NCBI GenBank assembly: GCA_017516925.1
Contig: JAFXAQ010000065.1
Location: 1-42,770, forward strand
Direction of reading: 5' to 3'
DNA from: Oscillospiraceae bacterium
Lineage (GTDB): Bacteria > Bacillota > Clostridia > Oscillospirales > Oscillospiraceae
DNA: 42,770 nt
Shown: positions 37,536-40,657 of the stretch, one piece after another
How positions within the stretch are numbered: position 1 is the stretch's first letter
Layout: every line of letters starts with the position of its first letter
The notes under the pieces: generated by a model
What the model was told of the DNA's origin: nothing
The model's input: the letters and a program-made list of their open reading frames with translations, nothing else
Databases searched by the model: none
Program-made: the position numbers and the translations under genes

Positions 37536-38463
37536 CTGGCTGCTGGCGCGGGACAATTTTGTGCTCCTGACCCACCGCAAGCCTGACGGGGATACCCTGG
37601 GCTCTGCCGCCGCCCTTTGCCGGGGTCTGCGGCAGAAGGGGAAAACTGCCCACGTTTTGGAAAATGACGAGGTCACTGCGCTGTATGCCCCTTTGCTGGA
37701 AGGGCTCACCAAGCCCCATCCGGAGGAAGGTGATATTCTCGTTGCGGTGGATGTGGCGGCGGACAATATGCTGCCCCAGGTCTTTATGGAGATGAAAAAC
37801 TGCATCGATTTGCGGATTGACCACCACGGCTCCGGGCGGGAGTATACGCCCTATGAGCTGGTGGATGCCCAGTCTGCCGCCTGCGCAGAGCTTGTCTGGG
37901 AGCTGCTGCTGGATATGGGTGTGGACCCGGACAAGGAAATGGCAGAGGCAGTTTATGTGGGTGTTTCCACAGATACCGGCTGCTTCCGCTATGCCAATAC
38001 CAATGCCCATACCTTTGATGTAGCTGCCGATTGCGCTGCCACCGGGGCGGATGTGTTTGAATGGAACCGAAAGCTCTTTGACACCAATTCTCTGGCAAAG
38101 CTGCGGCTGCAGGCCTGGGTCGTGGATAACCTGAAGCTTTTGTGCGGCGGCGAGGTTGCCCTTTGCGCTTTGCCCAAGGCGGTGGAAGCGGAAATCGGTG
38201 TGGATGAAGACGATATGAACAACATTTCCGGCTTTTTGCGGAGCATTGAGGGCGTGTGCATTGCAGCGCTGCTGCGGGAGGCTTGTGAGGGAAGCACCAA
38301 GGTTTCCGTCCGTTCCGTTCCCGGGTATAATGCGGCATATTTCTGCGAGCAGTTTGGCGGCGGCGGTCATGCCGGCGCAGCTGGCTGTTCCATCCGCAAG
38401 AGCTTGGCAGAGGCTGCCGCGGAAGTGGAAGAAGTGCTGAAAAAATGGGGCGAGGCGCTATGA
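37504..38463 (+). CDS. nrnA: DHH-family phosphoesterase (NrnA-like oligoribonuclease/pAp phosphatase)
   Basis: 319 residues. Motifs in order: HRKPDGDTLGSAAAL (I), VAVDVAA (II), DHHGSG (III), VYVGVSTDTGCFRYANT (IV) and the DHHA1 end GGGGHAGAAG. NrnA degrades short RNA and removes the 3'-phosphate of pAp. ATG 37504 follows GGAGG at 37490 by about 9 bases; a second ATG 37513 would also work. It overlaps rbfA by 32 bp and shares TATGA with truB. Confidence 0.93.
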   Translation: MTGMTIAQTADWLLARDNFVLLTHRKPDGDTLGSAAALCRGLRQKGKTAHVLENDEVTALYAPLLEGLTKPHPEEGDILVAVDVAADNMLPQVFMEMKNCIDLRIDHHGSGREYTPYELVDAQSAACAELVWELLLDMGVDPDKEMAEAVYVGVSTDTGCFRYANTNAHTFDVAADCAATGADVFEWNRKLFDTNSLAKLRLQAWVVDNLKLLCGGEVALCALPKAVEAEIGVDEDDMNNISGFLRSIEGVCIAALLREACEGSTKVSVRSVPGYNAAYFCEQFGGGGHAGAAGCSIRKSLAEAAAEVEEVLKKWGEAL

Positions 38464-39332
38464 ACGGCATTGTAATTGTGGACAAGCCCCAAGGCTGGAC
38501 AAGTCAGGACGTGGTGAGCAAGCTGCGGGGTGTTTTGCATACCCGGCGCATTGGCCACGGCGGCACCCTGGACCCGATGGCTACCGGCGTTTTGCCGGTG
38601 TTTGTGGGCAGGGGCACCCGGGGTGTGGAGTTTTTCGAGCACGCAGAAAAGACTTATGAAACTGTTTTGCGGCTGGGTGTGACCACCGACACGGAGGATA
38701 TTACCGGCGAGGTGCTGGAAAATCGAACAGTCAATGTGACAAAAGAGGCTTTTTTGGCTGCTTTGGATAGGTTTCGTGGAGAAATTCAGCAAATTCCGCC
38801 TATGTACTCAGCGCTCAAAATCAACGGACAAAAGCTCTGCGACCTTGCCCGCAAGGGTAAGGAGGTGGAGCGAAAGCCCCGGACCATTACCATATTTGCG
38901 CTGGATTGCCTGGACTTTGACGGGGTGAATGCCACCTTGCGGGTCCGCTGCTCCAAGGGTACGTATATTCGAACCCTGTGCAAGGATATCGGCGAAGCCT
39001 TGGGCTGCGGCGGCTGTATGGCAAGTCTGCGCAGGACCGCTGCCGGGGCATATACCCTTGACCGGGCGGTACCGCTGCAGACCCTCATTGAAGCGGAAAA
39101 TCCGGAAAGCTATCTTCTGCCTCTGGACAGCATGTTTGAAAAATACCCGGCAATGACCCTGACGGCAAAGCAGGAAAAGTGCTGCCGCAATGGGGCTGGC
39201 TTTACGTATCCGGGGGAGAACGGCACCTACCGGGTGTACGGACAAACTGGGGAATTTTTGGCGCTGAGCCAGATAGAAGACGGCGTTATGTCAACCGTAA
39301 AGAGCTTTTTTGATGCTTCTGCCTCCCTCTGA
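38460..39332 (+). CDS. truB: tRNA pseudouridine-55 synthase TruB
   Basis: 290 residues from ATG 38460, overlapping nrnA's stop. The catalytic motif GGTLDPMATGVLPV contains the nucleophilic Asp, and YEWVL-type ETVLRLGVTTDTED and CSKGTYIRTLCKDIGEALG are present, then a short C-terminal PUA-like part. It makes pseudouridine 55 in tRNA. The last codons (ASL) and the TGA stop at 39330-39332 lie inside the left repeat unit of the DUF559 element, so the element provides the end of the gene; the original C-terminus was probably a few residues different. Confidence 0.95.
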   Translation: MNGIVIVDKPQGWTSQDVVSKLRGVLHTRRIGHGGTLDPMATGVLPVFVGRGTRGVEFFEHAEKTYETVLRLGVTTDTEDITGEVLENRTVNVTKEAFLAALDRFRGEIQQIPPMYSALKINGQKLCDLARKGKEVERKPRTITIFALDCLDFDGVNATLRVRCSKGTYIRTLCKDIGEALGCGGCMASLRRTAAGAYTLDRAVPLQTLIEAENPESYLLPLDSMFEKYPAMTLTAKQEKCCRNGAGFTYPGENGTYRVYGQTGEFLALSQIEDGVMSTVKSFFDASASL

Positions 39333-39760
39333 TGAGGGAGGTGCCCCGAAGGGGCGGAGGGAGAGATATGAAACCTTACAATCGGGCAAACATACCGCTA
39401 GCCAAAGAACTCCGCAAGAATATGACCCCTTGGGAACGAAAATTGTGGTATGACTATCTGCGGTATTATCCAATTCGCTTTCAACGGCAAAAAGCGATTG
39501 GTGATTACATTGTGGATTTTTACTGCGCAAAAGCAAGGCTTGCCATAGAATTGGATGGCAGCGGACATTATGAACCGGAACAGGAAAGAAAAGACACCCT
39601 CCGTACTGCGCAACTGGAGAATATGAATTTGACGATTGTGCGAATTTGTAACCTGGATATAGACAAAAATTTTGCGGGTGTCTGTGAGTATATTGATATG
39701 ATCGTGCAAAATTCTCTCCCCCAGTCAGCTTCGCTGACAGCCCCCTCATCAGAGGGAGCC
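39321..39760. mobile_element. DUF559-carrying element with inverted double-hairpin ends
   Basis: Left end (39322-39365): hairpin CCTCCCTC-TGAT-GAGGGAGG, then GCCCC-GAA-GGGGC, then GGAGGGAGAG. Right end (39714-39760), read on the minus strand: hairpin GGCTCCCTC-TGAT-GAGGGGGC, then GTCAGC-GAA-GCTGAC, then CTGGGGGAGAG. The tails form a terminal inverted repeat. Between them lies a DUF559 gene starting 3 bases after the left end. The two ends are of different subtype (AGGTG...CGGAGGG and GGCTG...CTGGGGG), and the gene-less element at 1022-1136 has one of each as well. Mobility is inferred from structure and position, not proven. Confidence 0.75.
39368..39712 (+). other. DUF559 (PD-(D/E)xK-like endonuclease fold) portion of the fused frame
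   Basis: About 115 residues: LAKELRKNMTPWERKLWYDYLR, then FQRQKAIGDYIVDFYC, then LAIELDGSGHYEPEQERKD, LRTAQLENMNLTIVRICNLDI. DUF559 proteins share the Vsr/restriction-endonuclease-like fold; the IVDF aspartate and IELDG glutamate/aspartate are the expected metal ligands, and all are present here. The start ATG 39368 sits just after GGAGGGAGAG of the left repeat, which doubles as ribosome site. Its natural stop codon is missing, so it reads on through the right repeat into ribF. Confidence 0.85.
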
Positions 39761-40657
39761 TTGGTGCGGGGGACAACAGAAAAGACAATTTATGCCCTGG
39801 GGTTTTTTGATGGGGTGCATTTGGGTCATCAGGCGCTGCTGAAGGCGTGCAGAGCGCTGGCAGATGCCCGGGGCTGCAAGGCCGGTGCGGTGACCTTTAC
39901 CTCTCATCCGGAGACGGTGCTTTTGGGAAAAGCCCCGGCATTTATCAACACAATCGATGACCGCCGGCGGCTCCTTACCCAATACGGGATGGATGCCGTG
40001 GTATGTCTGCCCTTTGATCAAGGGCTGATGTCTACACCGTGGCAGGACTTTTTGGATGACCTTATGGCAAAGGATGCGGCAGGCTTTGTTTGCGGGGATG
40101 ATTTCCGCTTTGGCTATCGAGGTCAGGGCAACGCAACCTTATTGACGGATTACTGCAGGGAAAGGCAGCTTTCTTGTGTGGTAGTGCCGGAACAGCTGGT
40201 CGATGGCATCCGGGTTTCCTCTACCTACATCCGGAAGCTTTTGGAAAGTGGCAAAACGGAGGAGGCAGTTCAGTTTTTGGGACACCCCCATATGCTTACC
40301 GGGATTGTGGTTGCCGGAAAGCAGCTGGGCAGAACCCTGGGCATTCCCACGGCAAATCTGGAATTACCGGAAGAATTGGTGCAGATGAAGTTCGGCGTAT
40401 ATGCCTGCAAAGCTGTGGTTGACGGCAAGGAATATCTTGCGGTGACCAATGTGGGAAATCGTCCTACGGTAGGCGGCGAGAAAATTACTGTGGAGCCGTG
40501 GCTTCTGGATTTTGCGGGCGATTTGTACGGCAGGGAAATCACCGTGGAATTTTATGCCTTTCTCCGCCCGGAGGAAAAATTTGCGGATTTGACTGCGCTG
40601 CAGACACAAATTCGCCGGGATGGGGAAAAAACCCGGACTTTTTTCTTGGAAAAGTGA
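39368..40657 (+). CDS. ribF: Fused frame: DUF559 endonuclease-like domain + bifunctional riboflavin kinase/FAD synthetase
   Basis: The frame runs 429 codons without a stop. Residues 1-115 are the DUF559 domain, residues 116-135 are translated from the right repeat unit (LPQSASLTAPSSEGAL), and the rest is RibF: FAD synthetase motifs LGFFDGVHLGHQALL and TFTSHPETVL, then flavokinase GKQLGRTLGIPTANLELP and VTNVGNRPTVGG. RibF turns riboflavin into FMN and FAD. RibF alone could be translated from GTG 39764 (or TTG 39761), with GAGGGAG at 39752-39758 as ribosome site, giving 297 residues, close to the normal 300-310. Which form is made is unknown; the intact RibF motifs argue that FAD synthesis is retained. 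Confidence 0.9.
   Translation: MKPYNRANIPLAKELRKNMTPWERKLWYDYLRYYPIRFQRQKAIGDYIVDFYCAKARLAIELDGSGHYEPEQERKDTLRTAQLENMNLTIVRICNLDIDKNFAGVCEYIDMIVQNSLPQSASLTAPSSEGALVRGTTEKTIYALGFFDGVHLGHQALLKACRALADARGCKAGAVTFTSHPETVLLGKAPAFINTIDDRRRLLTQYGMDAVVCLPFDQGLMSTPWQDFLDDLMAKDAAGFVCGDDFRFGYRGQGNATLLTDYCRERQLSCVVVPEQLVDGIRVSSTYIRKLLESGKTEEAVQFLGHPHMLTGIVVAGKQLGRTLGIPTANLELPEELVQMKFGVYACKAVVDGKEYLAVTNVGNRPTVGGEKITVEPWLLDFAGDLYGREITVEFYAFLRPEEKFADLTALQTQIRRDGEKTRTFFLEK

Follow-up and report, generated by a model that had tools for sequence, protein, structure and literature searches.

A DUF559 Element Between truB and ribF

In a stretch of 42,770 nucleotides from an Oscillospiraceae bacterium (contig JAFXAQ010000065.1 of assembly GCA_017516925.1; the whole stretch is called the window here), two inverted double-hairpin units (39318-39365 on the plus strand and 39714-39763 on the minus strand) enclose an intact gene of the DUF559 family between truB and ribF. 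We regard this arrangement as probably a copy of a small transposable element. The features of the locus, and a second pair of units in the window, are as follows:

38463-39332, plus strand: truB (Pfam TruB_N, E 3.9e-56), with stop codon TGA at 39330-39332
39318-39365, plus strand: left unit (50.8 bits, covariance model)
39322-39341, plus strand: H1 hairpin of the left unit, arms CCTCCCTC and GAGGGAGG, loop containing the truB stop
39342-39365, plus strand: remainder of the left unit, namely linker T 39342, H2 hairpin 39343-39355 and mirror tail 39356-39365
39368-39712, plus strand: DUF559 endonuclease-like gene, domain at 39398-39700, without a stop codon inside the element
39714-39763, minus strand: right unit, inverted, with H1 39740-39759, linker 39739, H2 39724-39738 and tail 39714-39723 (52.1 bits)
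39760-39764, plus strand: outer flank cttgg (CCAAG when read outward), resembling the CAAG/CTTG outer flanks of other elements
39761-40657, plus strand: ribF, canonical ATG missing (Pfam FAD_syn, E 1.7e-37; Flavokinase, E 1e-41)
1019-1137: second inward unit pair (1019-1077 plus, 1081-1137 minus), a short form without DUF559

The left and right units were the top two covariance-model matches in the window (E about 1e-14), with scores that are partly high by construction, as both units were in the training set of the model (A1). They are inverted relative to each other, with 21-nt arms that are 90% complementary, and each of them, folded on its own strand, beat 200 of 200 shuffles (z -3.8 for the left and -3.6 for the right unit). 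Together with the Pfam match of the gene, these results confirm the arrangement, a DUF559 gene enclosed by an inverted pair of double-hairpin units, that a first-pass annotation had described from the sequence alone. Its statement that the left unit supplies the truB stop was also correct: the TGA lies inside the left H1 loop, and the final few truB residues are likewise insert sequence, as judged against the C-termini of relatives. Nothing in the window reached an Rfam gathering score, and the single Rfam match over seven sources was a ZMP/ZTP riboswitch in L139, away from any unit.

Architecture of the Units

Each unit consists of hairpin H1, a T, hairpin H2 and a tail, and of 94 units detected, 81 could be parsed in the form H1-T-H2(G...C)-tail. 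The two end types of the first-pass annotation are two hairpin variants of a single unit design. In most elements, the H2 sequences of the two ends are different.

The tail repeats the 3' purine arm of H1 in reverse order. Over 21 distinct triples, the mirror agreement was 6.24 of 8 positions versus 4.56 for permuted tails (0 of 10000 permutations as high), and 25 previously unseen triples from a set of named loci, collected with a tail-blind finder, gave 5.8 of 8 versus 4.42 (best permutation 5.24); in both cases, the triples are not independent by descent. A direct repeat was also tried as a description of the tail, and was weaker than the mirror at offset 0.

Deviations from the mirror follow a pattern. 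Opposite C-G pairs of H1, the tail has G (108 of 125), and opposite T-A pairs it has A (26 of 51) or T (18 of 51). Opposite G-C pairs, T is found in 11 of 14 cases, versus 2 of 14 for the mirror base C. In purine-motif triplexes, an antiparallel third strand places G on G-C, A or T on A-T, and T on C-G. The tail substitutions match this code, which suggests that the ends may form a DNA triplex; the order of purine arm, turn and tail has the right polarity, and H2 would be the turn of the putative triplex.

Units and DUF559 Occur Together

DUF559 was present in 33 of the 61 genomes of the genus, at 61 places, 54 of which were analyzed, the other 7 being partial pieces. An inverted repeat (score of at least 17) spanned 44 of these 54 genes, versus 0 of 44 controls displaced by about 1 kb (maximum 13), and most of the 44 repeats were double-hairpin units adjoining the gene. 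When upstream and downstream flanks were swapped between genus loci, the median score was 11, the 90th percentile 23.5 and the maximum 42. High scores arise in this control from units of one type that are found at more than one locus, and the displaced-flank control is therefore fairer. At the named loci, an inverted repeat was found for 45 of the 78 that could be tested (79 in all), versus 0 of 57 displaced controls, and a strict finder placed inward units on both sides of 26 and on one side of 33 of the 79. The same ends thus border DUF559 at other loci, a point on which the first-pass annotation had let its proposal of a mobile element stand or fall.

The units were specific for DUF559. A covariance model (R1) trained on the genus DUF559 flanks was applied to 400 kb of genome G055 and 196 kb of G018. 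In these 596 kb, the 217 matches formed 103 inward pairs and 11 singles (the G055 counts use all 157 rows, with 74 pairs and 9 singles, three of which are weak matches overlapping a stronger match on the opposite strand). The gap between the two units was -4 to 114 nt in 96 pairs and 350-441 nt in the remaining 7. All 7 long pairs hold DUF559, leaving no space for another gene, and 7 of the 8 DUF559 genes in the 596 kb lie inside long pairs (the exception is G018 C2:184816).

Genome G021, which has no DUF559 match, contained 8 pairs, all short, and 14 singles in ten contigs or contig pieces, with several singles at contig ends. Contigs of this metagenome-assembled genome (MAG; L370-L373, L376) often end inside or beside units, and assemblies may therefore lack DUF559 copies. 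As to the short forms more generally, the window pair at 1019-1137 has a different H1 type, with CCCCTT arms. A short GC hairpin of the GGCGGC..GCCGCC type is often found directly outside elements (L142, L145, L148).

Unit Type Follows the DUF559 Clade

A quick tree was made from 44 of the 54 DUF559 proteins, after leaving out any with an internal stop or without a parsed unit. The 11 H1 types required 11 changes on this tree (minimum 10), versus a mean of 27.2 and a minimum of 23 in 300 shuffles, and host identity required 21 changes over 26 rows from 10 multi-copy hosts. G055 alone has four DUF559 clades with four H1 types. Unit type therefore tracks the DUF559 clade, not the host.

Unit numbers were also associated with DUF559. 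At least 10 units were present in all 33 genomes with DUF559 and in 13 of the 28 genomes without it, 15 of which had any (any versus none, p 5.7e-6). These counts come from scoring that saturates near 95 per genome, with a model trained on units of DUF559-bearing genomes. For three H1 types, units of the type were present in 18 of 18 genome-type cases with a matching DUF559, whose own ends count, versus 58 of 165 without. A strict dependence of unit count on a resident cognate DUF559 was thus rejected.

Filled and Empty Sites

The flanks of all 73 G055 pairs of an initial count were compared with syntenic stretches, which allowed 32 pairs to be placed in one or more relatives. Among 13 of these 32, picked for a small gap in a relative and aligned, most had the element in G055 and lacked it in one or more relatives (pair 6 is unclear), and several of the empty sites had no resident unit. 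Insertions sit at many unrelated intergenic sites, with outer flanks that by type are mostly CTTG...CAAG, AAAG...CTTT or ATA...TAT.

The truB-ribF gap is itself an example. G055 and G266 also have a DUF559 element there, G011 (L219) has none, and G265, G264 and G262 have only a single H1-like hairpin or remnant; elsewhere in the genus, the gap is nearly empty (L070) or contains other repeats. The first-pass annotation had named the existence of empty sites as a further test, and sister species show both filled and empty sites, at truB-ribF and at other places. Its proposal of a mobile element that has structured ends and DUF559 as sole gene is well supported, with the role of DUF559 as mobility enzyme being a prediction. 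Some empty sites retain one H1 hairpin, which may be the outcome of a deletion between two palindromic H1s.

In L064 and L065, the DUF559 domains are identical and the outer flanks are common to two species (G055 and G057), which suggests a recent transfer of a larger piece.

The DUF559 Protein of the Window

The window protein matched the DUF559 profile (PF04480) with 87.5 bits (gathering cut-off 20.6; E 6.9e-25), and it retains all invariant residues of a 26-member alignment, including E23, D50, E61, D63 and H67. DUF559 is under purifying selection, with a median dN/dS of 0.075 in the 10 of 90 pairs that have dS below 1.5. The relatives in the PDB, found with a profile (A2), were the endonuclease-like 3HRL (E 2.4e-24) and the mobile intron protein 3R3P (E 0.0011), and we predict a Vsr/EDxHD-like nuclease. 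PDB rows to enterotoxin chains (E 0.4-1) were taken as chance, and PADLOC defence-system matches (mREase_II, DpdF) were weak only.

The likely start of DUF559 is ATG 39368, directly after the left-unit tail GGAGGGAG, rather than the start of the open reading frame at 39332. The tail is a good Shine-Dalgarno sequence for this ATG, and the same layout of tail and start was seen in the seven near relatives inspected (L253, L255-L259, L261), one of which uses GTG. The closest named relatives (L253-L261) are from gut Clostridia MAGs, with 70-78% identity and mostly the H1 type of the window.

A Reading Frame That Continues into RibF

The first-pass annotation had noted that the DUF559 frame stays open into RibF, and the frame (39332-40657, plus strand) is indeed uninterrupted from DUF559 through the right unit into RibF. 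An in-frame TTG (39761) and GTG (39764) lie directly behind the purine arm of the right unit. It is possible that RibF starts at one of these codons, or that it is produced as a DUF559-RibF fusion.

The frame also crosses the right unit in at least five of the nine nearest relatives (L253, L254, L255, L257, L258), typically with SLPQSASLTAPSSEG..., and it ends earlier in L260 and L261. The position of the stop is thus set by the flanking DNA. Among 133 DUF559 frames (54 from the genus and 79 named), five enter a host gene, in the window, L319, L330, L051 and L032. The frames of L319 and L330 are continuous into RNase HI, which has its own Met; the hosts are two distant Clostridia, a Ruminococcaceae MAG and Pseudoflavonifractor phocaeensis. 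Those of L051 and L032 enter genes that we take to be RlmL-like and NagA-like, respectively, each with its own Met. A sixth run-on frame (L325) extends 183 nt further without an identified gene. Loss of a host start codon was seen in none of the other frames.

We therefore consider the ribF fusion mostly incidental: the subclade of the window often has no stop inside the element, and only the window also loses the host start. The suggestion that the element had domesticated itself as an extension of ribF finds no support, since at least five of the nine nearest relatives also run past the right unit.

DUF559 Elements Beyond the Genus

In the GTDB family, DUF559 was found in 62 of 200 genomes, and 29 family loci had inward units on both sides (16), on one side (10) or on neither (3), in counts that leave out the weakest matches (22.4 bits or less, mostly half-length). 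A sample of the phylum outside the family yielded two strong short DUF559s (above 85 bits), of which L226 follows the same unit grammar. Outside Clostridia, Bifidobacterium biavatii (L282) has a DUF559 gene, and with it a long inverted repeat of the same style (score 61.5).

For other phyla, we used 24 selected plasmid or phage records (22 plasmids and 2 unverified faecal phage scaffolds). An inverted repeat across DUF559 was found in 16 of the 24, versus 0 of 23 controls. The repeat-bearing records include sphingomonads, Qipengyuania, S. meliloti, Azospirillum lipoferum, Deinococcus and Pseudanabaena, and also the phage scaffold L335 (score 17.0), whose repeat is not unit-like. Similar ends border DUF559 in some Alphaproteobacteria, Cyanobacteria and Deinococcota, often without H2: many of them have a linker of 2-3 nt in place of H2 between the arm and the mirror tail, often with T opposite A. 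The tail points outward in four Deinococcus loci, and inward or in mixed directions elsewhere. In a hairpin-plus-code test of 15 of the 16 repeat-bearing loci, a perfect tail was found for 21 of 74 hairpins versus 43 of 825 in the null, where many of the 74 hairpins are unrelated or were counted repeatedly, and most of the tails in the list share a fixed offset of 2-3 nt.

Three Deinococcus species have DUF559 elements at three different positions of one hpa operon (L338, L345, L353). In Pseudanabaena galeata (L337, 409-3336), the DUF559 stretch and its repeats lie within one larger annotated gene, perhaps as an in-frame insertion.

Relation to Known Mobile Elements and Repeats

The elements resemble the system formed by REPINs, which are built of repetitive extragenic palindromic sequences (REPs), and REP-associated tyrosine transposases (RAYTs), in that genomes contain dozens to hundreds of short structured units, mostly as inverted intergenic pairs, and a few copies that enclose one nuclease gene. 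They differ in the enzyme, which is DUF559 here and a Y1 HUH transposase (IS200/IS605-like) there, and in the units, which here are two hairpins plus a mirror tail. As both the enzyme and the ends differ, the DUF559 element is not a member of this system. With insertion sequences and miniature inverted-repeat transposable elements, the elements share an autonomous form and short forms with common ends; unlike these, they have no DDE or HUH gene, and their ends are hairpins with mirror tails. The EDxHD homing endonuclease I-Bth0305I (PDB 3R3P) and 3HRL have a detectable sequence relation to DUF559, weak in the case of 3R3P, with conserved E, D, E-x-D and H residues. In contrast to a homing endonuclease, DUF559 has about 115 residues and no extra DNA-binding region that we could see, sits between structured inverted ends and not in an intron or intein, and is inserted at varied intergenic sites rather than only at a cognate long target.

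REPs with a CGTC tag apparently lack a dedicated transposase, and are described as having an 8-9 bp stem beginning with AT, a CCA tail and a mostly head-to-head dimeric arrangement (Di Nocera, 2013, PMC3733652). Type A units, read in reverse, have the order CGTC-stem-CCA and also occur mostly as head-to-head pairs, and in the Novosphingobium unit L339 the stem begins with AT as well. By contrast, the stem of H2 varies widely in Clostridia and in most cases starts with bases other than AT, and H1 and the mirror tail are absent from the published description as far as it was compared. Membership of the units in this group is a lead, from a comparison by description. Our searches of one library of open-licence papers, few of which were opened, found none that links DUF559 to such repeats.

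Assessment of Alternative Explanations

Taken together, these observations lead us to read the window copy as an autonomous transposable element of about 450-550 bp, with a DUF559 nuclease as its sole gene, inverted H1-T-H2-tail ends and short non-autonomous relatives, with a probability of roughly three in four. Several results weigh against this. Ten of the 54 genus copies have no clear inverted repeat, and for a few of the 44 others (e.g., G002 C4:5897 and G032) the matching repeat is a more distant neighbor. Some family copies have outward units, and 8 of the 24 records from other phyla lack an inverted repeat (two Synechocystis, Sinorhizobium sp. K101, A. brasilense, Picosynechococcus, Methylobacterium, Photobacterium and Shinella). 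Many units occur without a DUF559 match in G004, G010, G013, G021 and G022, for example, which gaps in MAGs may explain in part. More than two copies of a type were found in 13 of 18 cases with a matching DUF559 versus 36 of 165 without, which is enrichment only, as one type clearly departs from it in G013 and G022 and another in G004, G021 and G025. The match between clade and H1 type could be explained by simple linkage alone. Finally, no target-site duplication was recognized at the 13 aligned sites, where the flanks are too diverged to exclude one of 2-4 bp.

The units might be ordinary REPs or REPINs that are moved by a RAYT of the IS200/IS605 type, with DUF559 as a flanked passenger. Genes of the RAYT-like Y1 type do occur in 33 of the 61 genus genomes, and some unit-rich genomes have no DUF559. 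Yet none of 30 Y1 loci (two of them cut by contig ends) is enclosed by units: the model gives just 4 units over the whole set, and no locus has one on each side. Of the 30, 14 have an inverted repeat of their own, and it carries GTAGGG in 11 of the 14, whereas every long unit pair in G055 and G018 contains DUF559. GTAG is the tag of REPs tied to RAYT, and by inspection it stands at no hairpin foot in a 50-unit alignment. Each enzyme family thus has its own kind of repeat, and we rejected RAYT as carrier of the units; the passenger model as a whole is very unlikely. The Y1 genes of L109, L110, L112, L113 and L116-L122, between their own GTAGGG-bearing inverted repeats, represent GTAG-tagged REPs in Clostridia.

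The model in which DUF559 is a homing endonuclease that cuts unit-like or long targets and spreads by gene conversion, without transposition to new sites, gains from the sequence relation to the EDxHD homing endonuclease 3R3P (PMC3943268) and from the reuse of the same gap, such as truB-ribF in G000, G055 and G266. We consider it unlikely in view of the many unrelated intergenic sites, the empty sites without a resident unit, the Deinococcus copies at different places in one operon and the abundance of short copies without a gene. A role of the units as host transcription terminators or RNA regulators that tolerate DUF559 between them, with nothing mobile, would suit the terminator-like stem of H1, the intergenic location and the good RNA folds. 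This is scarcely credible against presence or absence at orthologous gaps, strict inward pairing with size classes and an H1 type that follows the DUF559 clade, and it leaves the tail rule unexplained. As to the DUF559-ribF frame, it comes from one fragmented MAG of 83.55% completeness and is the sole case without a host ATG, which would fit a meaningless assembly error or decaying copy. That is improbable, as the truB-ribF gaps of G055 and G266 also contain a DUF559 element, L253 and L254, among other relatives, extend the C-terminus through the right unit with a near-identical sequence, and the DUF559 residues are conserved.

Proposed Mechanism and Significance

For the transposable element that we favor, movement could begin at a single-stranded or extruded end, where H1 would fold and the purine tail would fold back antiparallel on the H1 purine arm, turning at H2, to give a triplex. 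A DUF559 protein of the matching clade would recognize the end and cut, and host repair or replication would finish the move into intergenic DNA. Short copies, of two inward units with little or nothing between them, would be non-autonomous relatives mobilized in trans. Later recombination between the palindromic H1s may delete the interior and leave a solo H1. The left tail would act as Shine-Dalgarno sequence for DUF559, and in the window the insertion would have replaced the truB stop and the ribF start.

The elements across several phyla look like a class of transposable element not yet described. More tentatively, and at somewhat less than even odds, DUF559 proteins may be the mobility enzymes of ancient multi-phylum elements with intramolecular-triplex ends, each built of a hairpin and a mirror-image purine tail for which H2 is an optional turn; these elements would include the CGTC-tagged REPs and the DUF559 repeats of Cyanobacteria and Deinococcota. 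If our reading is true, DUF559, a domain of "unknown function," gains a role as the driver of an autonomous mobile element that ranks among the smallest, both in gut bacteria and elsewhere, and is a candidate enzyme for repeat families whose spread had none. If the triplex holds, these elements would show a triplex being used in nature to mark DNA for a nuclease. The truB-ribF locus shows that an essential gene, ribF, can come to rely on mobile DNA for its start signal.

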